IMG/VR virus record: IMGVR_UViG_3300033987_000190
Coordinates: 1-33,283 of that record
Strand: one strand, 5' to 3'
Length of the DNA stretch: 33,283 bases
Origin: a virus
The position numbers were made by a program, and so were the translations under genes. Positions 16,024 through 33,283 of this stretch are shown here, one piece after another; position 1 is the first letter of the stretch, and each line of letters begins with the position of its first letter. The notes beneath the pieces are model-generated. The model was given only the letters and a program-made list of their open reading frames with translations. It did not search any database and was not told the origin of the DNA.

Positions 16024-16061
16024 GGGGATGGAACGGACTTCGGAGACGAAAGGAGGCGCCG

Positions 16062-16370: not shown

Positions 16371-16868
16371 ATGGCGTGGTCGAAGCAACAGCGGCTGGAA
16401 GTGCGGAATCTCTACGTGAACGACGGGCTCCAGCCGCAGGACATCTCCCGCGAAACCGGCATCCCGGCGTCCACCATCTGCCGCTGGCGGTCCCAGGCCA
16501 GGAAGAAAGGCGACGACTGGGACAAGGCCCGGTACCAGGCGTGCCTTTCGAGCGAGCACATCGAGGGGCTGAACCGCCAGATCCTCGGCCGCTATCTGGA
16601 CATGCTCACCAACACGGTCAACTCCGTTCATGCCGCGGACCTGGACCCGATGGAAAAGACCAAGGCCCTGACCAGCCTCGCCGACTCCTACAACAAGATG
16701 GTCGGGGCCATGAAGCGGATCAACCCGGAAGTGGCCGTGGCCGAGGTGGCCGTGAACGTCATCACCATCGTCCATGAGGCGCTGAAGGCCCGGTCCGAAT
16801 CGGCGGCGGCCGTCCTGGCCGAGTGCATCGACGAAATCACGGCGCGCATCCAGGAGCGATACAGTTAG
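16371..16868 (+). CDS. Terminase small subunit-like, Mu gp27 family (DUF1804)
   Basis: 165 aa. An N-terminal HTH (MAWSKQQRLEVRNLYVNDGL, then DISRETGIPASTICRWRSQA) is followed by a helical region. Mu gp27/DUF1804 proteins sit directly before the large terminase and probably recognise the phage end for packaging. The gene ends 2 bases before the large terminase ATG. Confidence 0.85.
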   Translation: MAWSKQQRLEVRNLYVNDGLQPQDISRETGIPASTICRWRSQARKKGDDWDKARYQACLSSEHIEGLNRQILGRYLDMLTNTVNSVHAADLDPMEKTKALTSLADSYNKMVGAMKRINPEVAVAEVAVNVITIVHEALKARSESAAAVLAECIDEITARIQERYS

Positions 16869-16870
16869 GC

Positions 16871-18508
16871 ATGATCGGAGCGGTTGCGAAGCTGGACAAG
16901 AAGGCCCTGGCGGCCGGCATCGAGGAGCTGAAGCGCCGGATCACCGAGGAGGTGAAGCCCTTTCAGGACGGTCCTGGCGACCAGGCCGCCCGCGTCGAAC
17001 GTGCATCGAAGGACCTGGCCTTCTTCGGGCAGACCTACTTTCCCCACTACTGCACGCGCCCGATGGGGGCCATGCACCGGGAAATTTGCTCGCTATATGA
17101 GAAAATCATCCTGAATCCCAAGCCGCAGAAGACGGCGCTGGCCGCCCCTCGCGGCAACGCCAAGTCCACCTGGACGAGCCTCATCCTGCCCATCTGGTGC
17201 ATCGTCTTCGCCCGAAAACACTTCATCGCCGTCTTTTCCAATTCGCATACCCAGGCGGCGGATTTCCTGGAATTCATCAAGGCCGAACTGGAATCCAACG
17301 AGCGGCTGCGCCACGACTTCGAGGGCGCCTGCGGCGAAGGGCCCGTCTGGAAGTACGGCACGGCGGTCACGCGCAACGGCATCCGCCTGAAGGCGTGGGG
17401 CGTGCGCCAGAAACTCCTGGGCGCCCGGCATCTCCAATGGCGTCCCGATCTGTGCATCTACGACGACCTGGAGGACCCGGAAGAACTCGCCAACCCGGAA
17501 AACCGCAAGAAGAACGAAGCGTGGTTCTTCCGGAAGGCCGTGAACATCGGCGACATCAACTACACGGATCACCTGGTGGTGGGGACGATCCTCCACGCCG
17601 ATGCGCTTCTCCCCAAGCTCATCGCGAAGTACGGGGGCACCACGTACCGGAGCGTCATCCGGTGGAGCGAAAGCCCGCTCTGGGACCGGTGGGCCGACAT
17701 CTATGCGTCCGAGGCGGACCCGGAAAAGCCCGAGGCCCGCGCCTTCTTCGAGGCCCACAAGAGCCGGATGCTCGCCGGAACGGAGGTTCTGTGGCCGGAA
17801 GGAGAAAGCTACTACGACCTCATGTGCCTGCGCCAGGACATCGGCCCCGCCGCCTTCGACGCCGAAAAGCAGAACGACCCGGCCGAATCGGGATGGTTCA
17901 AGGAGGAATGGCTGGAAAAGTGGGCCTACGACCCGGCCGACATCTCCGGAAGGAAGCTCATCGTCACCGCCGCCTGCGATCCCTCGATGGGAAAGGACAC
18001 GGGGGCCCCCTCGGCCATCGTCGTCCTCGGCCGCGATCCGGAAACGGGCGTGGTGTACGTGCTGGAAGGGGACATCGCCCGGCGCCATCCGTCGGCGATC
18101 ATCCGGGACGTGATCGCCCATCAGGAGCGCCACCGGTGCGTGGCATGGCGGTTCGAGGAGGTGCAGTTGCAGGAATATTTGAAAGACCAGCTCCTGGCCG
18201 AATCCATGCAAGCCGGCGTGCCGCTCCCCGTCTATGGTGTGCGGCCGCACAAGGACAAGCACCTCCGGATCCAGGGCCTGCAGCCGCACATCTTCAACGG
18301 CGTGATCCGCCTGCCGCGCTCCATGAAGGCGGGCCGGGACAACCCCATGAACCTCTGGAACCAGCTCATCCACTATCCCAGGGCGGCCTTCCTGGACGGA
18401 CCGGATGCCCTGGAGATGGCCTTTAACGGCTCCAGGTCCCTGGGCGAGGGACGGGTGGTGACGCGCCGCCGGCGCCGATCCTCCCGCATGACGCAAGGCT
18501 ATCTGTAG
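16871..18508 (+). CDS. Terminase large subunit (Mu gp28-like)
   Basis: 545 aa from ATG 16871. The ATPase shows a variant Walker A, PRGNAKST (residues 93-100), a Walker B LCIYDDLED (about 194-202) and a coupling motif VGTILH (237-242). The nuclease domain has TAACDPSMGKDTGAPS (Asp370) and RFEEVQ (Glu429/430), as in RNase-H-like terminase nucleases. It powers headful packaging of DNA into the prohead through the portal. The next gene is the portal, 14 bases downstream. Confidence 0.93.
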   Translation: MIGAVAKLDKKALAAGIEELKRRITEEVKPFQDGPGDQAARVERASKDLAFFGQTYFPHYCTRPMGAMHREICSLYEKIILNPKPQKTALAAPRGNAKSTWTSLILPIWCIVFARKHFIAVFSNSHTQAADFLEFIKAELESNERLRHDFEGACGEGPVWKYGTAVTRNGIRLKAWGVRQKLLGARHLQWRPDLCIYDDLEDPEELANPENRKKNEAWFFRKAVNIGDINYTDHLVVGTILHADALLPKLIAKYGGTTYRSVIRWSESPLWDRWADIYASEADPEKPEARAFFEAHKSRMLAGTEVLWPEGESYYDLMCLRQDIGPAAFDAEKQNDPAESGWFKEEWLEKWAYDPADISGRKLIVTAACDPSMGKDTGAPSAIVVLGRDPETGVVYVLEGDIARRHPSAIIRDVIAHQERHRCVAWRFEEVQLQEYLKDQLLAESMQAGVPLPVYGVRPHKDKHLRIQGLQPHIFNGVIRLPRSMKAGRDNPMNLWNQLIHYPRAAFLDGPDALEMAFNGSRSLGEGRVVTRRRRRSSRMTQGYL

Positions 18509-18522
18509 ACGTGGAGTAAACG

Positions 18523-20025
18523 ATGCCGGACGAACGAAAGCTCCTCACCAAGACGCTTTTCACCCGCGCCAGGCTCTGGGATTTCCAGACCTGCCTGGGG
18601 CTCCTCCCCAACCCGGATCCGGTGCTGCGAAAGAAGGGCCTGGCCATACAGGCCTATGAGAACATCCTGGTGGACGGGCGCGTGGTAGCCTGCATGGAAA
18701 GCCGAAAGGCCGGCGTCCTTTCCTGGGCATGGGAACTGGAAGGCGGCGGGTCCGACAAGCACCGAGGGATCCTGAGCGACCACCTGGAAAGAATCGACAT
18801 TCACAACGTGCTGAACCAGGTCCTGGACGCCGTCTTCTTCGGCTACAAGCCGCTGGAAGTGATTTGGGAGCGCGTGGGCGGCGGGTGGATCCTTCCCGCG
18901 GAAGTCCGGGGGCTGCCGCCCCAATGGTTCGCCTTTGATCCGGAAAACCGCCTCCGGTTCCTCTCCGCATCGTCCGCCCTGACCGGGGAGGAGGTGCCGG
19001 AGCGCAAGGTGCTCGTGGCCGCCCGGGACGCCTCCTACGCCAACCCCTACGGCCGGCCCGTGGCGGCTCTCTGTTTCTGGCCGGTCAGTTTCAAGCGGGG
19101 CGGGCTGAAGTTCTGGGTGTCCTTCGTGGAGCGCTTCGGCATGCCGCATCTCCTGGGCAAGGTCCCGCCCGGCACGCACGAAGACAAGATGAACGCCCTG
19201 GCGGACCAGCTGGAAAAGATGGTCCAGGATGCCATCGCCGTCATCGAAGACGATCAGAGCATCGACACCCTGGACGTGGGGACCCGGTCCGCATCCAGCA
19301 ATCTCTACCGGGATCTCAGCCGCCACATGAACGACGAGATCGCCGTGGCCGTGCTGGGCCAGACCCTCACCACCGAAGTGCGCGAAGGCTCGCGCGCCGC
19401 CGCCCAGGTCCACATGGCCGTGCGCGACGACATCGCCGCCAAGGACCGGCGCATGGTGGCCGGCGTCATGAACCGGCTCATCCGCTGGATCTGGGATCTC
19501 AACTTCACCGGCGATCCGCCGGTCTGGCGCTGGGTGGAAGAAGACGATCCCAGGAAGGATTGGGCCGAGCGGGACGATTTGTTGGCCAAGCAGGTCCGCT
19601 TCACCAAGGTCTACTTCCAGCGCCGCTACGGCCTCCAGGAAGACGAATTCCAGGTGATGGATACCCAGGGTCTCCCCCAGGCGCCGGAAGGCGTTCTGGG
19701 GCCATCCAGAGGCTTTTCCTGGGCGTTTCGTTCCGGGGCCGCGCCGGCGATGGCGACGCCTCCGGCTCAGGACCCCGGCCAGGCGGCCATAGACGGACTG
19801 GCCGATGCCTACGCCGGCCGCGCGGCCGAGGCGTTTCAAACATCTTTGGGCCCGGTGCTGCAGGCCGTGCAGGAAGCCCAAAGCTACGAAGACCTGATGG
19901 AACGCCTCTACGAGCTCCACAGGGAGATGAACACCGCGGACTTCCAGGAGCTGGTGCGACAAGCCCTCTTCGCCGCGGATCTCTGGGGATACCTGCGCGC
20001 CAAGGATGAGGCGGGTGGGGCATGA
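18523..20025 (+). CDS. Portal protein (Mu gp29-like, DUF935)
   Basis: 500 aa. Diagnostic stretches are LAIQAYENILVDGRVVACME, the central YKPLEVIWERVGG, LVAARDASYANPYGRPVAAL, FVERFGMPHLLGKVPPGTHE and the conserved AIAVLGQTLTT-type segment (here AVAVLGQTLTTEVREGSRAA). It forms the dodecameric ring at the head vertex that binds terminase and the tail. Its 3' end overlaps the MuF gene by 4 bases (ATGA). Confidence 0.93.
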   Translation: MPDERKLLTKTLFTRARLWDFQTCLGLLPNPDPVLRKKGLAIQAYENILVDGRVVACMESRKAGVLSWAWELEGGGSDKHRGILSDHLERIDIHNVLNQVLDAVFFGYKPLEVIWERVGGGWILPAEVRGLPPQWFAFDPENRLRFLSASSALTGEEVPERKVLVAARDASYANPYGRPVAALCFWPVSFKRGGLKFWVSFVERFGMPHLLGKVPPGTHEDKMNALADQLEKMVQDAIAVIEDDQSIDTLDVGTRSASSNLYRDLSRHMNDEIAVAVLGQTLTTEVREGSRAAAQVHMAVRDDIAAKDRRMVAGVMNRLIRWIWDLNFTGDPPVWRWVEEDDPRKDWAERDDLLAKQVRFTKVYFQRRYGLQEDEFQVMDTQGLPQAPEGVLGPSRGFSWAFRSGAAPAMATPPAQDPGQAAIDGLADAYAGRAAEAFQTSLGPVLQAVQEAQSYEDLMERLYELHREMNTADFQELVRQALFAADLWGYLRAKDEAGGA

Positions 20026-21491
20026 TCGAACTCAAGCCGCTCCCGTTCGATGAAGCGATCCGGTTTTTCCGGGACAAGGGCCTGGCCGTCTCGCCGCTCT
20101 CCTGGCGGGACGTCTGGGCGGACGCCAATGTGCGCGCCTTCACCGTGGCCCGCGTGGCCGCAATGGATGTGCTGGAAGACATTCGTCGGGAAGTGGACCG
20201 GGCCGTGCGATCCGGCGTCACCCTGCAGGACTTCAAGGCTTCGCTCGCCGAAACCCTGGCCCGCAAGGGCTGGTGGACTCCTCCCTTAGAAAAGCCCGAA
20301 GAGATTCTGCCCGACGGCATGGTCCGAAAGCGCCTAACGCCCTGGCGGCTGGACACCATCTTCCGCACCAACGTGCAGAGCGCCTACAACACGGGCCGCT
20401 ACCGGCAGATGATCGAAAACGCCCCCCGCCGGCCCTGGTGGCTCTACGACGCCGTGAACGACGCCCGCACGCGCCCCGCCCACGCCGCGATGGACGGCAA
20501 GGTCTTCCGCTTCGATCATCCCATCTGGGACAAATGGTATCCGCCCAACGGCTTCAACTGCCGGTGCACGGTCCGGGCCCTCTCGGATCGGGACATGGAG
20601 CGCCGCGGCCTCCGGGAAAGCACCCGTCCGCCCGCGGACAGACCGGATGAAGGATTCGACTACAACCCGGGCCGCGTGAAGTGGCAGCCGGATTTCAACC
20701 GCTACGCGCCCCGGGCCCGGCATCTGCTCCAATCCGATCTCTCGGACGGCTCCGCCTCCGGACCTTTACCCCTTCGGAACCGACCCGACATCGCCGCCGT
20801 CCTGACGCAGAAGCTGGGGCACATGCTCCCCAACGGCGTGCGGGACGTCCGCTTTGCAGACGCAAAATTCCTCATGGCCACGGACAGCCGCGGCGGCTTT
20901 GTGGTCTCCACACGCCCTAAGAACCTGACCAAAGTGGGAGGGCCGGCGGCTTATCGGGCCGACCGCATGCTGGAAAGCGGCCTCCGGGCGCTCGGTAGGC
21001 GTCCGCTCACGTTCGACGAAGAATACGCGCTCGAAAGCTTCTGGCACGAATGCCTGCACAACCTCCAGGTGGAAGCGCGGGACCGGACCGCTTTCTACGC
21101 CAAGCGCTATCCGGACAGCCGGGTGCTCATGGAAACCGTCACCCAGTGGACGGCCAGGCGCACCTACCACCAGATGCTGGACGCCCTGGGCGGCTACCGG
21201 CCGTCGCTGCAGGATGACATCATCCGGCGCGGCTATGCCTACCGGCACTGGGTGAGAAACCTGGAATCTCTGCGGGTGCGGGTGGGGATCGGTGAATCGC
21301 AGCTCAAGGCCGCCTGTGCCGAGGTCATGGGAAGCGTTCCGCGGGACCAATACGAAGACGCCCTCGTCGAACGGCTTACGGCGCGTGGAGCGCTCCAGCC
21401 CGACCGCGAGTTCGTATTCCGTCTCGGCCTGCAATGCCTGCGCTCGGATCCGAAGACCTTTGCCGAGACCGTGCTGGCTTTCTTGGAGTGA
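20022..21491 (+). CDS. MuF head morphogenesis protein fused to zincin-like domain
   Basis: 489 aa. Residues 1-235 are a normal MuF (gp30) domain: DTIFRTNVQSAYNTGRYRQM (111-130), ARTRPAHAAMDGKVF and PPNGFNCRCTVRAL (174-187) with its Cys-x-Cys pair. Residues 250-489 are an added domain, with FDEEYALESFWHECLHNLQ (331-349): HECLH (342-346) fits the HExxH zinc-protease motif, and Glu371 (METVTQW) could be the third ligand. MuF proteins are minor head proteins injected or placed at the portal, and the family is known to carry variable C-terminal toxin or enzyme domains. The last part is helical (QYEDALVERL, FRLGLQCLRSD). Protease activity is inferred. Confidence 0.85.
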   Translation: MIELKPLPFDEAIRFFRDKGLAVSPLSWRDVWADANVRAFTVARVAAMDVLEDIRREVDRAVRSGVTLQDFKASLAETLARKGWWTPPLEKPEEILPDGMVRKRLTPWRLDTIFRTNVQSAYNTGRYRQMIENAPRRPWWLYDAVNDARTRPAHAAMDGKVFRFDHPIWDKWYPPNGFNCRCTVRALSDRDMERRGLRESTRPPADRPDEGFDYNPGRVKWQPDFNRYAPRARHLLQSDLSDGSASGPLPLRNRPDIAAVLTQKLGHMLPNGVRDVRFADAKFLMATDSRGGFVVSTRPKNLTKVGGPAAYRADRMLESGLRALGRRPLTFDEEYALESFWHECLHNLQVEARDRTAFYAKRYPDSRVLMETVTQWTARRTYHQMLDALGGYRPSLQDDIIRRGYAYRHWVRNLESLRVRVGIGESQLKAACAEVMGSVPRDQYEDALVERLTARGALQPDREFVFRLGLQCLRSDPKTFAETVLAFLE

Positions 21492-22357: not shown

Positions 22358-22735
22358 ATGTGTCCATTGAAGCGTTGTCGTTTTCTTGAGGCGGCGAAAG
22401 CCATCATTGACGAGAGGCGTTGCTTGGAGTGGGGGTATGTCCCCTCTCGGGATCTCATGGGCTATTACTGGAAGGGGGAATGGGTCGGAGGCGATACCGT
22501 GGACGATGCGATCCATTTTATCGCCGACCAGATTGATGCCTCCCAGTCCCCGAAGTCCATGCCGTCCTGTTGCCGGGAGCAGGCCCTTGTTGACACCATC
22601 GAAAGCGAGGGGTTCGATTGTCCGAACCTGCACGCCCTCGTGCTTGCGACGCCCGTGCGGTTTTCGGGGCGGGTGCTTCGACCGGCGGACGGGAAGGACG
22701 AGCGGAGCGGAGGCGAAGGACTGAAGCGATCCTGA
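22358..22735 (+). CDS. Unknown cargo protein (125 aa)
   Basis: ATG 22358 has a perfect TTAGGAGGT upstream, right after the end of the preceding fragment. The protein starts MCPLKRCRFLEAAKAIIDER and contains WGYVPSRDLMGYYWKGEWVG and DAIHFIADQIDASQSPKSMP; cysteines occur at residues 2, 7, 22, 71, 72 and 87. No membrane segment. The C-terminal 30 residues are basic and low-complexity (RPADGKDERSGGEGLKRS), reading into a GC-rich repeat-like tract. I do not recognise it; it is the only complete gene of the 806-bp insert. Confidence 0.6.
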   Translation: MCPLKRCRFLEAAKAIIDERRCLEWGYVPSRDLMGYYWKGEWVGGDTVDDAIHFIADQIDASQSPKSMPSCCREQALVDTIESEGFDCPNLHALVLATPVRFSGRVLRPADGKDERSGGEGLKRS

Positions 22736-25119: not shown

Positions 25120-25389
25120 TCATGCCCTTGTCATCTCCCGGATCACCGCCATCGCGTCTTCCAGGATGCGCCGCTGCTGCCAGGCCAGTTCCTTGGTGCT
25201 CCGGGTGCGGCCGCCGATTTTTTCATATTGATTGCAAAGCTGGACGCCCTTCGCCAGGATCCCCTGCAGCCGGACCACGGCCGGCATGGCGCCGGGACGC
25301 TCATCCAGCTCCGCCCCGCAGCACACGCACGTGTATTGCGTGCACCGCTCGCAGTGGTTCACATGCCCGCACGAGGGACAGACTTTCAT
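25120..25389 (-). CDS. Zinc-ribbon protein (89 aa)
   Basis: The N-terminus has CPSCGHVNHCERCTQYTCVC CG: four CxxC-type pairs within 25 residues, enough for one or two zinc sites. The rest is a helix (VRLQGILAKGVQLCNQYEKI, then ELAWQQRRILEDAMAVIREM). AAGGAGGTGG precedes the ATG, which overlaps the upstream stop (ATGA). Function unknown; probably nucleic-acid or protein binding. Confidence 0.75.
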   Translation of the reverse strand: MKVCPSCGHVNHCERCTQYTCVCCGAELDERPGAMPAVVRLQGILAKGVQLCNQYEKIGGRTRSTKELAWQQRRILEDAMAVIREMTRA

Positions 25390-28447: not shown

Positions 28448-29074
28448 TCATGCGAAAGCGGCTCCGATCTCCCTGCACAACTCCGCCGCCCTCCGCCCGT
28501 GTTCCTCCACGTGTTGGGCCAACCCACTGCACACCAACCGATTCAGCTCCACGACCTTCATCACGAGAGGATCAGGCTGGAACTCCTCTTTGGAAGCCGG
28601 CTCGAAAATCGCGTCCCTGCCCGCCAGCGTGAGGCGCCACAGTTTCTCCACGCAACCGTTCGGCTTCCTACGTATCCCTGCCTGGCGAACCCATCCTTTC
28701 TCCTTGTAAGTCCGCATGCGCTTGTAGATGTAGGAATCGCTGGTGCCGGCCTGCTGCGCGATGTCTTGGACGGACCACTTCTCGTTGATCTGCATGGCTC
28801 GCCGGATGCGGTCCTCCATCTCGGCTGGCCTCGGGGCGTCCGGTCCGCCGGCCTCGGGCCCTCCGCTCCGATCGCTCGCAAAGGCATACACGCCGTGGCT
28901 CAGCTTCCGGAGAAACCCCTGCCGGCAAAGCGTCTCCACCGCGCGCTTCGCCTGGTCCACCGTGAGCCCCAGGGCTTCCCGGACCTGCTTTTTGCGGATC
29001 GTCCCCTGGGCCGCAGCGAACTGGCGCACCATGTCCGTGGTGGTCCCGACCCTGAGCGCCCGTCCCGTCGTCAT
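28448..29074 (-). CDS. Winged-helix DNA-binding protein (208 aa)
   Basis: Two winged-helix units: residues 12-70 (MVRQFAAAQGTIRKKQVREA, VDQAKRAVETLCRQGFLRKL, HGVYAF) and 86-155 (IRRAMQINEKWSVQDIAQQA, GTSDSYIYKRMRTYKEKGWV, LWRLTLAGRDAI). The start has AAAGGAGGTGACGG upstream. It follows MuB directly and resembles regulators in the early regions of B3-like transposable phages. Target unknown. Confidence 0.75.
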   Translation of the reverse strand: MTTGRALRVGTTTDMVRQFAAAQGTIRKKQVREALGLTVDQAKRAVETLCRQGFLRKLSHGVYAFASDRSGGPEAGGPDAPRPAEMEDRIRRAMQINEKWSVQDIAQQAGTSDSYIYKRMRTYKEKGWVRQAGIRRKPNGCVEKLWRLTLAGRDAIFEPASKEEFQPDPLVMKVVELNRLVCSGLAQHVEEHGRRAAELCREIGAAFA

Positions 29075-29103: not shown

Positions 29104-29838
29104 TCATGCCCAGGCCCCGATCACCTTGAGTTTCCTGCCCCCCTTCGGTCCATCCAGCCACCTGGGCATCCGATCCACCATGTCGGCTTCCACCATTTTG
29201 GTCCTGTTGGCCTTACAGATCCGCTCAAGTTCCCATACCGCCTGCCAGACCCGCCTGAAATCGCCGCCCGAGATCTTTTCCACCTTGCGGGCCGCCTCGG
29301 GCTCCATCTTGAGGTCCGCCGCCTTCAAGGTGAACAGCATGATGTCTTCTGCTCCGATGGGCCCGAACTCCACCGTGCGCGTGACACGGCTCCACAGCCT
29401 GCGACGGCTCTCGATCTGGGCGAACAGGTGCTGCTCCCCGATGAACACCACCGGGGCCCCGGTTAGGTCGTGCAAGTCCCGGAAATGCTCGATCAGGTCC
29501 ACCTTCAGCCGGTCGGCCTCATCCACGAGCACCGGACGTGGGTCGGCATCCAGGGCCTCCGCCGCCATGCGCCGGCACCGTTCCACGCTGTGGGCTTCCT
29601 GTCCCCGAAGCGCCCGGCAGAGCGCCCCCAACATGGCCCGAGGGGTCCAGTCCTGCATCACCCGGAGATACACCGCCCCGGTTCGCACTGCGTATTCCCG
29701 GGCGCACACCGTCTTGCCCCGGCCGGCGATTCCCCACACCACCGCCAGGCCAGGCTGGCCCGCCTCGATGTCCTCCAGGGCCACCATCGCCTCGCGGAAC
29801 TTCCGTACATTGGCCGTCTCCAAGAAAATGTTTCTCAC
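29104..29838 (-). CDS. MuB-like transposition ATPase
   Basis: 244 aa from GTG with AAAGGAGGT. Walker A GIAGRGKT (36-43), Walker B VLVDEADRL (103-111), sensor VVFIGEQ (130-136) and arginines at 145-147 (SRRRL), the pattern of AAA+ MuB/BcepMu-type target selectors. It is shorter than Mu B (312 aa) because it lacks the N-terminal HTH domain, as in D3112/B3-type phages. It binds target DNA, activates transposase and gives target immunity. Confidence 0.9.
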   Translation of the reverse strand: MRNIFLETANVRKFREAMVALEDIEAGQPGLAVVWGIAGRGKTVCAREYAVRTGAVYLRVMQDWTPRAMLGALCRALRGQEAHSVERCRRMAAEALDADPRPVLVDEADRLKVDLIEHFRDLHDLTGAPVVFIGEQHLFAQIESRRRLWSRVTRTVEFGPIGAEDIMLFTLKAADLKMEPEAARKVEKISGGDFRRVWQAVWELERICKANRTKMVEADMVDRMPRWLDGPKGGRKLKVIGAWA

Positions 29839-29859: not shown

Positions 29860-32139
29860 TCACTTCACCCCGTACAGCTCCGCCAGCTGATCGTAGCGGT
29901 CCGCGAAGTTCTCCCGGAATTCCGCTGTTTTCTCGTAGTAGCTCATGAACGCCTCATCCTCATCGCTGAGCCGCATCTTGTGGATGTGCTTCGCCCGCCA
30001 GCACCACTCGTAGCGCTCCGGTTCGCTCCCGAACCACTCCGGACGCTCCGGCTTCTCCGGATCATCACCACAGGCCGAAGCCTCCTCGTCCAGCTGCTCG
30101 TAGACCACCCGAAGCCGATCCATCTCCTCCGGATCCGGAATCTCGGCCGGCGCTTCTCGCTTTCCTTTCAGGACCGCCGCCATGCCCCACGGCGCATCCA
30201 CCACATCGCGGATATCCTCCGGGATCACGCCCAGCTCCCGCAGGTTCTCCACCGTCTGTTTCTTGAGCCGGCGCTGTCGCTCCAGGGCCGCCCGCACCTG
30301 GTCCACCGCCACCTGGTCTCCGAACTCCCGCGCCAGCGGGTGCAGCGCCTCCACAGGATGGATCTCTCCGAGCAGGTGCCCGTCCAGCGTGCAGGCCCAC
30401 ATCCTGTTGAGATCCGAACAGTCGTAGTACACTCGCACCCGATCGGTCGTACCGTGCAGGCAGTCGCCCTCGTAGTCGATCCCCCACATCCGGATCCGGC
30501 ATCGCCGCACGGGACGCTCCTCCCGCCACAGCATGTCCCAGCCCAGCTGGTACTCATCGACGCCGGGGCCTTTCCCGGCCTCGAAGACCTCCCTGGGCGT
30601 CCGGCCGCCCAGCCCCCGGTGGGGTTGGTCCACGTACCACTCGATATACCGGCCGATGAGGTGCGCCGCTTCCCGGATGTCAGGGATCCACCCCTGGAAT
30701 TTGGCTTCGTGCCAGGCCTTGTGCAGCTTCTCGTTACGCTGCATCCAGGCTGGCTTGCGATCGATGGAGGAACCGCAATAGGTGGGCAGGAGCAATTCGA
30801 ACTGATCCGACAGCGTCTGGAAAAATCGTTCGACGATCTTGGCGCGCGCCTCATACGGCCTGGCCGTGAACACCGCGATGCCCAGGCGGGTGTAGAGACC
30901 CGTGCATTCGCCTAGATCCGGATCCGTCTCCGTGAAGACTTTGGCCTTGAAGGCCTTGCCGTTGTCCACGTAGACCGATTTGGGGATCATGCCCAGGGTG
31001 ATGATCCCGCGGCGGAGCGCCGCGTGGATCGCCACCACGTTTTCGGTGGGCATAATCTGCCAGCCGGCCGGGTAGCGGCTCACCCAATCGTAGTAGACGA
31101 TGAGCTTCATCCGGCACGGCTTTCCGGTCTGCGGGTGCAATACGAAGAAGTCCAGAGGATGTCCGTCGGCCACCAGGCAATCGCCCACGTTCAGGATCCA
31201 GTCTGCGCGATCGATGTGTGGAGCGATCTTGTCCTTGTAGGCCTTCTCGCCTTCGCGCATCAGCACGATCACATGCTGATTGTGCCTGGCGTAGTCCCTG
31301 AACCAGCGACGGAAGGTGTCATCGTGCGCCGGCTCCTCGATTCCCCGGCGTTCCAGGATCATGCGGGCGGCCCGGATGGCCGTGGATACGCTCGGCCGGC
31401 TCGGTTGCAGGTAGCATTGGAGGAACGCACGGCGGGCCGGCTCGCTGAGCTTCCGATCCTTCCACTTGGTGCTGCCATGCTTCGCCCAGCCGCCCCGGGT
31501 GTCCGCGATGGCCAGGAAATCGTCATCGGCCTCACGCAAATACTTGTCCAGTCGATAGAGGGTCTTGGCGGCCACCGGTCCCACCACCTCGAAGACTTCG
31601 GGCAGGCGCTGCTTGGAGTTATATGCCGCCAGGAAAGCCTCTGTGGCATCTTTGCGTTTGCCCCACGGGGCGCGCCCGCGCAACTCACGCCAGGCATGCA
31701 CCAGCTTGTACTTGGCTAGCCCGATCTTCCTGGCCCGATCCGGCATGCCGAGTGGCAGAGGCACGTATCGCCGGATTTTGTCTCGGCGCCGCTCCTCCGC
31801 TTCGGCCATCAGCTCCCGAACCGTCTGGTCCATCAAGGGGTTCGGCCGCATGGCCGCCAGAGGCACCTGCTCCACCGCCGGAGGGATCTGATCCGCCGGC
31901 GGCAGCGGTGGAGGGTTCTCCCGGATCTCATCCAGCTTCCGCTGGATCTCCCATCGCTGCACCGCCTCCCGCACATCCCGCGGCAACGACGCCAGGGGAA
32001 AGAGCTTCTGTTTGCCGCCACGGCCCTTGCCCTTCTGGAGGACATGGGGCCAATTCTCCGCGGTCGCTCGCTTTTCTATCGCCTGGCGGGTCACTCCAAG
32101 CGCCTTCGCTATCTCTTTTGCAGCATAAGAGTCCTTCAT
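29860..32139 (-). CDS. Mu-type DDE transposase A
   Basis: 759 aa. Residues 1-65 form a Mu-type HTH (KDSYAAKEIAKALGVTRQAI EKRA, LFPLASLPRDVREAVQRW). An end-binding domain lies at 100-300. The integrase-like catalytic core has Asp325 (LVADGH), Asp392 (VYVDNGK, 67 residues later, exactly as in MuA) and Glu437 (KIVERF). A beta-barrel follows at 540-600 and the C-terminal helical part should contact MuB. It performs DNA strand transfer for integration and replicative transposition. Start ATG overlaps the upstream stop (ATGA). Confidence 0.95.
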   Translation of the reverse strand: MKDSYAAKEIAKALGVTRQAIEKRATAENWPHVLQKGKGRGGKQKLFPLASLPRDVREAVQRWEIQRKLDEIRENPPPLPPADQIPPAVEQVPLAAMRPNPLMDQTVRELMAEAEERRRDKIRRYVPLPLGMPDRARKIGLAKYKLVHAWRELRGRAPWGKRKDATEAFLAAYNSKQRLPEVFEVVGPVAAKTLYRLDKYLREADDDFLAIADTRGGWAKHGSTKWKDRKLSEPARRAFLQCYLQPSRPSVSTAIRAARMILERRGIEEPAHDDTFRRWFRDYARHNQHVIVLMREGEKAYKDKIAPHIDRADWILNVGDCLVADGHPLDFFVLHPQTGKPCRMKLIVYYDWVSRYPAGWQIMPTENVVAIHAALRRGIITLGMIPKSVYVDNGKAFKAKVFTETDPDLGECTGLYTRLGIAVFTARPYEARAKIVERFFQTLSDQFELLLPTYCGSSIDRKPAWMQRNEKLHKAWHEAKFQGWIPDIREAAHLIGRYIEWYVDQPHRGLGGRTPREVFEAGKGPGVDEYQLGWDMLWREERPVRRCRIRMWGIDYEGDCLHGTTDRVRVYYDCSDLNRMWACTLDGHLLGEIHPVEALHPLAREFGDQVAVDQVRAALERQRRLKKQTVENLRELGVIPEDIRDVVDAPWGMAAVLKGKREAPAEIPDPEEMDRLRVVYEQLDEEASACGDDPEKPERPEWFGSEPERYEWCWRAKHIHKMRLSDEDEAFMSYYEKTAEFRENFADRYDQLAELYGVK

Positions 32140-32354
32140 GCCGCATCACCATCAGACACAACGGGGCATCCGTGTCTCTTCAGGAACTCAAGCACAGCAC
32201 CGCTCAATCCCTTCCCGCTTGCGCCTCGCTCGCCGGCCACAACCCTGCATACGAGCGCCTTAGACGCACCCGTCGCCTTCGCGACGTCGGTCTGCGTGAT
32301 ACCTGCATCCAGAAGCCACTTCTTGATTTCCACTCTCTGTTTCATCTCTCTCAT
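32136..32354 (-). CDS. Small HTH regulator (Ner-position, 72 aa)
   Basis: EIKKWLLDAGITQTDVAKAT GASKALVCRVVAGERGASGK is an XRE-type HTH with a short tail. Position just before transposase A matches Ner of Mu, a negative regulator of early transcription. It overlaps both neighbours by ATGA. Whether it acts as Ner is inferred. Confidence 0.8.
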   Translation of the reverse strand: MREMKQRVEIKKWLLDAGITQTDVAKATGASKALVCRVVAGERGASGKGLSGAVLEFLKRHGCPVVSDGDAA

Positions 32355-32809
32355 CTACAGTCCCACTCCTGGGCTAGTTTTCTGGCTCGCTTCTTTGCTC
32401 TTCGAAGCTCAACCTCCGACCTGGCCCAGAGCAATAGCTTCTCATCCTGGAGATCGATGACCCTGGCTCCCATGAAGCTCTTGGCATAGGCCTCCAGAGG
32501 TAAATTCGAGCCCACCACGCGGCAAAAGATAGGCAAGAGTCGGAGTGGGATGACGTGCCCCGCCGACGGCGCCACCCACTTGTCCAGCAGCGCCGGAGTC
32601 ACACCCTGGGCCCTGCCGTTCGTTGTCCACCCCTGAGCCCTCATCAGCCGATTCATCTCGTCCACGATCTGATCTCTGGACAAAGATGAAGCCCGAATCG
32701 CCTCGTTCATGGCAGACTTCAGTACGGGGATCGGATCCTGAAGCATCTGATCCCACAGATGCAGCTGATGGGGTTGTCCGGAATTTCCGCTGGATTGGAC
32801 GTTGAACAT
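32351..32809 (-). CDS. First early gene, putative DNA-binding regulator
   Basis: 152 aa from ATG 32809 (AGGA 9 bases upstream); the TTG at 32842 is an alternative. The part LHLWDQMLQDPIPVLKSAMN, LSRDQIVDEMNRLMRAQGW, and VTPALLDKWVAPSAGHVIPL RLLPIF is what I recall from the first early genes of BcepMu/B3-like phages. An HTH-like region lies at residues 40-80 ('S.DQIVDEMN....' to 'LDKW'). It is read in the same direction as transposase, so it is not a classical Mu c repressor. Confidence 0.72.
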   Translation of the reverse strand: MFNVQSSGNSGQPHQLHLWDQMLQDPIPVLKSAMNEAIRASSLSRDQIVDEMNRLMRAQGWTTNGRAQGVTPALLDKWVAPSAGHVIPLRLLPIFCRVVGSNLPLEAYAKSFMGARVIDLQDEKLLLWARSEVELRRAKKRARKLAQEWDCR

Positions 32810-32862
32810 GGCCGCCGTCCTGAGGTATGGTGCGGGTGACAACTTCTTGCCAACGTGAAGAC

Positions 32863-32891: not shown

Positions 32892-32902
32892 CACATAAAA
32901 TT

Positions 32903-33013
32903 GGTTGCATAGTCAAAATTGCACAGTTTTATGGTTCGCTAATAATTCTAATATGTTGCGGGGGTTCGCTGGTTGCTTAATCGGTTGCTTAGTCTTCACA
33001 GAACTAAGCAACC
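32903..33013. repeat. Array of GGTTGCTTAGTC-like 12-bp sites (operator region)
   Basis: Copies: GGTTGCATAGTC (32903), GGTTCGCTAATA (32933), GGTTCGCT (32963), GGTTGCTTAATC (32971), GGTTGCTTAGTC (32983), and an inverted GGTTGCTTAGTT ending the array (33013-33002). The first three start exactly 30 bases apart. The last pair makes a perfect 11-bp inverted repeat with a 9-base gap. Repressor or transposase binding sites are likely; this corresponds to the Mu operator/enhancer region. Confidence 0.8.
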
Positions 33014-33030
33014 TCAAGGAGGCCATTGGA

Positions 33031-33177
33031 TTGCACAGCACCTTGGGCGAACGTATCAGATTTCTAAATGAATGGAACAGACCAGGCCCGATGCGTTCTT
33101 CTCATTTTGTCTGCCAAAAACAGGCAAAAGACATGCATTTTTCTCATTTTGAGTTCCGGGCATTATATCTAAGCTAA
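33031..33177 (+). pseudogene. Remnant of divergent repressor gene (48 codons)
   Basis: TTG 33031 has AAGGAGG 8 bases upstream and opens LHSTLGERIRFLNEWN, the usual first residues of XRE phage repressors (TLGERIRFLRE...). After ~15 residues similarity ends and the frame closes after 48 codons. Two putative transposase-binding sites (33099, 33141) lie within it. In Mu relatives the c repressor occupies exactly this place and direction. It looks like a decapitated or internally deleted repressor. Confidence 0.45.
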
Positions 33178-33242
33178 GTGCTCGGCATGTCTCATAGTTC
33201 ACGCCGCCTCACGCTTTTTCAACTTTTCTCAGATTATCTGCC
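33099..33242. repeat. Putative transposase-binding sites at the phage left end
   Basis: TTCTCATTTTGTCTGCC (33099-33115), TTCTCATTTTGAGTTCC (33141-33157), a weaker TCTCATAGTTCACGCC (33190-33205), and TTCTCAGATTATCTGCC (33226-33242). The first two start 42 bases apart. Sites 1 and 4 agree at 13-14 of 17 positions. Several ~20-bp sites within ~150 bases of a terminus is how MuA sites L1-L3 are arranged. Confidence 0.6.
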
Positions 33243-33248
33243 TCCCCA

Positions 33249-33250
33249 CA
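33249..33250. other. Predicted phage terminus (CA/TG); host DNA beyond
   Basis: Reading inward on the - strand from 33250 gives TGTGGGGAGGCAGATAATCT, beginning with TG like Mu-type ends and placing the outermost 17-bp site 8 bases inside. A CA at 33247-33248 is an alternative. The remaining 33 bases to 33283 would be host DNA and hold no recognisable feature. The partner end lies outside the window, so the 5-bp target duplication cannot be checked. Confidence 0.45.
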
Positions 33251-33283
33251 ACCGCCAGCAGTCGCGAACAGGCCGTATCGAAG

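Follow-up and report, generated by a model that had tools for sequence, protein, structure and literature searches.

A predicted left end with three putative transposase sites in an environmental Mu-like phage, and the possible remnant of its repressor

Introduction

At which base does the phage end, and where does host DNA begin? This question is raised by the window studied here, the whole stretch of 33,283 bases that was analysed, which is an entire IMG/VR record of linear class whose first base is base 1. Close to its last bases the window carries a group of related direct repeats and, just outside them, an inward-reading TGTGGGGAGG at 33250-33241, from which the original prediction placed the left end of a transposable siphophage at 33250 or, alternatively, at 33248. 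Boundaries of proviruses in metagenomic contigs are usually guessed. The rule used in this work, namely T(G/A)T followed by five bases and a site, has been partly tested in relatives and places the ends of environmental transposable phages in such contigs. The second question is the short left arm, in which a loss of lysogeny by deletion could be directly checked in the phage of the window.

Results

Early genes and class of the phage

The genes adjoining the repeats are of the Mu-like type (Table 1). Transposase A is a DDE protein with Mu domains, its rve match remaining under the Pfam cut-off, and it is neighboured by B; several left-end sites, a 5′-TG terminus and the Mu-type portal and F proteins (Portal_Mu, E 1e-93; Phage_Mu_F, E 5e-24) complete the Mu-like features found in the window. 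Left of the early genes lie the Mu-type head genes and then the gene of a 1211-aa tape measure protein, and from this gene, together with the D3112-like setting, it is plausible that the phage is a siphophage. Similarity of A did not place it in Casadabanvirus, the D3112-like genus, with an identity of 26.7-26.9% over 47% of the length.

Table 1. Features at and near the predicted left end, in window coordinates
Feature	Position	Strand	Remarks
Bases beyond the phage end, probably host DNA (33 bases)	33251-33283	-	outside the T(G/A)T terminus defined by relatives
Predicted target duplication GCGGT (minus strand)	33251-33255	-	five bases adjoining the phage
Terminal eight bases TGTGGGGA, predicted first phage base 33250	33243-33250	-	8-nt offset from L1 as in relatives
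Predicted transposase site L1 GGCAGATAATCTGAGAAAAGTTG	33220-33242	-	bases 9-31 from the end; top with the right-end matrix
Predicted transposase site L2 GGAACTCAAAATGAGAAAAATGC	33135-33157	-	bases 94-116; shuffle and matrix tests
Predicted transposase site L3 GGCAGACAAAATGAGAAGAACGC	33093-33115	-	bases 136-158; shuffle and matrix tests
48-codon ORF, N-terminus STLGERIRFLNE	33031-33177	+	TTG start at 33031; AAGGAGG at 33016-33022, eight bases upstream
Operator-like GGTTGCTTAGTC-like repeats, direct	32902-32914, 32970-32982, 32982-32994	+	between the regulator and the repressor-like start
Operator-like GGTTGCTTAGTC-like repeat, inverted	33003-33013	+	end of the 32902-33013 cluster
Regulator, first early gene	32351-32842	-	phrog_2345 (transcriptional regulator family), E 1e-20
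Small HTH protein, Ner-like by position	32136-32354	-	weak matches under Pfam cut-offs
Transposase A (DDE, Mu C-terminal domain)	29860-32139	-	phrog_310, E 9e-110; PF09299 and PF09039 over cut-off
Target-choice ATPase B, adjoining A	29104-29838	-	phrog_296 'DNA transposition protein', E 4e-47; AAA_22

Three putative transposase sites

The sites L1, L2 and L3 are three direct 23-mers with spacings of 85 and 42 bp. The best site triple in the outer 250 bp was matched in none of 200 dinucleotide shuffles, for 17-, 20- and 23-mers each. With leave-one-out matrices, in each of which the training sites numbered two, two of the 66,522 positions outscored L2, two outscored L3 and three outscored L1; the three positions above L1, set against two training sites, mean that one other place inside the phage beats L1. 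A matrix made of 16 sites from the right ends of eight relatives (see below) ranked L1 first over the same 66,522 positions of the window, at 25.8 bits with a runner-up of 16.7, and placed L3 fourth and L2 outside the top ten.

Three or four related sites had been proposed originally, and the count of three is the one that survives. The fourth candidate, at 33183-33205, scored 7.9 with the family matrix against 19.2-27.5 for L1-L3, while other places inside the phage reach 9.4 and 18.6, and it was dropped because its score is like the background. A further site-like 23-mer, TGCAATCAATATGAAAAAATCGG at 25214-25236 on the minus strand, is the best place apart from L1-L3 with the full matrix of the window and the third with the right-end matrix; it is either a chance occurrence or an internal site.

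Sites and termini in relatives

A search with A gave a set of 80 loci, the closest A proteins found in IMG/VR being 51% identical in their best segment and 53% in an alignment, and a scan of genome contigs with the transposase gave one weak locus. An unseeded search for site triples in the relatives returned chiefly AT-rich and coding noise, yet it exposed L007 and L028, in which the same kind of sites lies left of A; matrices derived from sites performed better, and scanning with them revealed more loci.

The far ends of 23 relatives were scanned for sites in inward orientation, and for seven loci on both strands. Tandem site pairs, 21-22 bp apart, stand at seven of these far ends (G018, G002, G031, G026, G027, G037 and G038), and an eighth pair, in G022, was accepted by eye at a score of 14.8, below the print threshold of 16. 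The other 15 of the 23, which may be fragments, had no tandem pair of this kind. The eight far ends with tandem pairs are right ends, among which G037 and G038 are not independent because their sites are nearly the same. The eight bases that precede the first right-end site start with TGT in seven of the eight relatives and with TAT in one.

On the left side, the right-end matrix found site pairs 60-200 bp apart in 27 of 77 loci, the 77 being the window and the 76 relatives whose upstream sequence is 200 bp or longer. T(G/A)T is located 8 nt outside the outer site at 15 of the 27 pair loci (14 of 26 relatives when the window is excluded; L057 and L058, both among the 15, have an identical end), and 8 nt before the inner site at 2 of 27, where about one is expected under equal base use. 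At a stricter threshold, which excludes the window because L3 scores 10.8, the outer site has it at 12 of 21 loci versus 2 of 21 for the inner site. The 12 of 27 loci without T(G/A)T at this offset from the outer site, among which L032 and L046 show TTT, may include some wrong automatic picks; for L036, L047 and L081 a pick by eye, which has T(G/A)T, disagrees with the automatic one, and the automatic count was kept. As a side observation, the left terminus starts with TAT, not TGT, in L007, L035-L037, L040, L042, L051, L057, L081 and L084.

Both ends could be compared in six records. Two of them have 5-bp duplications at exactly the predicted termini, TTCAT in L028/L090 (G018) and GTGGG in L007/L089 (G002). 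The other four (G026, G027, G038 and G022, the left ends of G022 and G038 having been assigned by eye) have no matching duplication, and we read these four as contigs assembled from mixed virions. The left end of G031 lies beyond its record, and a left end of G037 was looked for and none was found; the right ends of these two records each predict a duplication, and matching strings do occur left of A, but they were not counted because no site stands beside them. For the window phage the record, which starts at base 1, contains only one flank and lacks the right end, and the expectation that the right end would mirror the left, with inverted sites, a CA/TG end and the same five flanking bases, was followed in relatives only and held in part: sites and termini were found as expected at the eight right ends, with TGT in all of them except one, and the duplication was present in the two records and absent from the four. 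Separately, matching ends and a 5-bp duplication delimit a transposable provirus in L007/L088/L089 (G002, about 2716-56807); at about 54 kb it is longer than the D3112-like phages (36-38 kb).

The phage end is placed at 33250

In the window, TGT is present at 33250-33248, 8 nt off L1, and the same offset from the outer site is seen for TGTTGACT in L028, TGTTAATT in L026, TATGATTT in L007 and others. Since TGTGGGGA lies outside L1 in the way that T(G/A)T lies at an 8-nt offset in the relatives, the end is assigned to 33250 and not to 33248. The proposal that the inward-reading sequence beyond the sites marks the phage end is therefore upheld, through the offset shared with relatives and the two 5-bp duplications. 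An end two bases further inward, at 33248 (TGGGGAGG), would also begin with TG, at 33248-33247, but its offset would be 6 nt, compared with 8 nt in relatives having a terminal T(G/A)T near the outer site, and the duplications of two relatives fix the terminus 8 nt outside that site; we consider this placement very improbable.

The 33 bases outside the end are probably host DNA. Their length agrees with one paper, which in its available part gives 31-36 bp of host DNA on the left ends of virions (PMC5977238); another, likewise in its available part, gives 50-100 nt of host DNA for its own two phages (PMC4378225). At 33283 the contig may stop at the physical end of the virion. Left flanks in other contigs vary, however, with 1 base in L026, 43 in L040, 64 in L016 and 114 in L028, and the length of 33 bases may therefore be due to chance.

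A short left arm and a possibly truncated repressor-like frame

In the window A lies 1111 bp from the phage end, versus 1951-4308 bp in 14 relatives with a picked end, and the regulator lies 408 bp from it, versus 1160-2450 bp in the seven relatives with a significant match (L081, E 0.14, was dropped, and six had no match). Among the 14, ten relatives were scanned with Pfam, and nine of them have divergent ORFs with an HTH, CI or S24 domain, L026 having none. Outside these ten, the ORFs listed for the left arm of L037 include none that is repressor-like; together with the ORF of L026 without a Pfam match, this indicates that the window is not unique in missing a recognisable repressor. L120, whose regulator is the nearest relative of that of the window (58% identical), has a full divergent ORF of 184 aa at the repressor place.

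A divergent lysogeny repressor marks the temperate members of such phages and not transposition itself. Near the left end of the window no such repressor was found, and its place is taken by a remnant-like ORF of 48 codons. With a repressor N-terminus matrix of 11 sequences hand-picked from relatives, its N-terminus ranked first of 53,736 peptide positions, at 15.5 with a runner-up of 11.6. By eye, the likeness stops after about 15 codons, and the frame then crosses L3 and L2 to its stop. The ORF matched nothing in Pfam, even with E values as high as 10 allowed, and gave only weak matches to phage proteins (E 4-9), and a search of viral contigs with GERIRFLNEW for an intact repressor returned none. 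From this one assembly we infer that the ORF would be a lysogeny repressor cut by a deletion that ends at L3, and, as it is cut after about 15 codons, the phage would make no repressor of its own. A 208-aa HTH protein (28448-29074) was considered as a replacement repressor. Since it has homologues in the records of L006, L007 and L009, and since L007 encodes a CI-type protein in the repressor position as well, this was rejected.

The GGTTGCTTAGTC-like repeats (Table 1) are likely operators. The string GGTTGCWTARTC occurs three times in the entire window, both strands included, and all three occurrences lie within 32902-33013; among viral contigs the operator string was found in seven, and in the one of them that was read, L117, the start of the contig is unlike the window region. 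A different assignment would make L1-L3 themselves the operators or other regulatory sites, with the contig breaking inside the phage and the repressor located beyond 33283. The position of the repeats in a regulatory region and the failure to find an intact repressor agree with it. The same sites, however, stand at the far phage end in eight relatives, the repressor-like start at 33031 is within the window with its frame closed at 33177, and the operator-like repeats differ from L1-L3 in sequence, so that we give this assignment hardly any weight and retain L1-L3 as predicted transposase sites.

How the repressor came to be missing is less clear-cut. A single deletion, extending through the body of the repressor as far as the edge of L3, may have made the transposable phage obligately lytic, with the sites and the operator-like repeats kept and the contig end being the virion terminus; taken jointly, this is a serious possibility that we hold slightly short of probable. 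The available part of one paper mentions a lytic relative of D3112 whose left end lacks about 2000 bp (PMC4378225, citing its reference 17). As the same paper counts this genome among those that seem incomplete, and does not include it with the phages that have sites, it is a loose precedent only. Otherwise, the left end could be correct and the missing repressor, like the short left arm, be an assembly shortcut, or the repressor be missing in one variant of a mixed population, the phage being temperate as usual. This would suit the single record and the repressor-like protein at that place in nine of the ten scanned relatives, whereas the sparing of all three sites and of the operator-like repeats by the join, and loosely the short lytic relative of D3112 (PMC4378225, in its available part), speak against it; we regard it as conceivable but somewhat doubtful.

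Discussion

In phage Mu, A binds sites at both ends. The ends are paired, nicks are made at the terminal TG, and the joining to a target has a 5-bp stagger; B picks the targets, and packaging starts from host DNA just beyond the left end. By analogy, A of the window phage would bind L1, L2, L3 and matching right-end sites, pair the two phage ends and nick beside the terminal TG at 33250, and the phage would be joined with a 5-bp stagger to target DNA selected by B. Packaging would begin just outside the left end, which in virions would leave a short stretch of host DNA attached to that end. Binding, pairing, cleavage and packaging are transferred here from Mu to the window phage, and the anatomy of the window and the duplications in two relatives fit the scheme. 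The explanation as a whole, in which the DNA from 33250 downward is a Mu-like left attachment end serving A/B transposition and virion-end packaging, with a putative deletion in the repressor, is in our judgement very probably correct.

The window phage resembles Mu of Escherichia coli in its A/B type proteins, its Mu portal and F proteins, the 5′-TG end and the presence of three sites. The Mu sites L1, L2 and L3 lie near 6, 111 and 151, giving an L1-L2 spacing of about 105, compared with 85 bp in the window. The D3112-like siphophages of Pseudomonas (PaMx73, H70, DMS3 and D3112) have three 22-bp direct left-end repeats at 10, 93 and 124 bp and a 5′-TGT, according to the available part of the source (PMC4378225), and the sites of the window at 9, 94 and 136 are likened to them by position; the TGT terminus and the short host DNA are further likenesses, as far as the accessible parts of two papers go (PMC4378225, PMC5977238). 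The differences are the distant A protein and the right end, as R1 of the D3112-like phages is inverted with respect to R2 and R3 (PMC4378225, available part), whereas the relatives of the window phage have two tandem right-end sites. KS10 of Burkholderia is reported to have direct end repeats presumed to be transposase sites and a repressor on the strand opposite to the early genes (PMC2628397), in both of which it is like the window. The same source describes KS10 as having four 15-nt sites only, without TG..CA ends or flanking repeats (PMC2628397), in contrast to the relatives of the window phage with their T(G/A)T ends and, in two, 5-bp duplications.

The head region of the window contains an inverted block at 16371-21491 (+), with a phrog_756 DNA-binding protein that is probably the small terminase, the terminase, the portal and F, while A, B, the protease, the major head protein and the tape measure are encoded on the opposite strand (-). 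Portal and A strands were compared in the 34 records, out of 41, that have a portal match, and they are co-oriented in 31 and opposed in three (G028, G033 and G035). The portals of these three are 41-43% identical to that of the window, and those of the co-oriented G032, G034 and G016 are equally close. As the opposed arrangement recurs, it is unlikely to be merely an assembly fault of the window record. In a search for inverted repeats flanking the block, the best outside pair was an unremarkable one of 22 nt at 82% (16026-16047 / 22546-22567). B3-like phages have an inverted early operon, in the part of the source available, an arrangement unlike the head block of the window (PMC5977238).

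In L028 (294-833), L037 (1063-1623) and L053 (about 420-500), similar small proteins are encoded on the left side of A, adjacent to the left-end region. The stretch LLFGVRRS.RYHNRRR is common to those of L028 and L037, with a similar stretch in L053 by eye, and perhaps these three are cargo genes.
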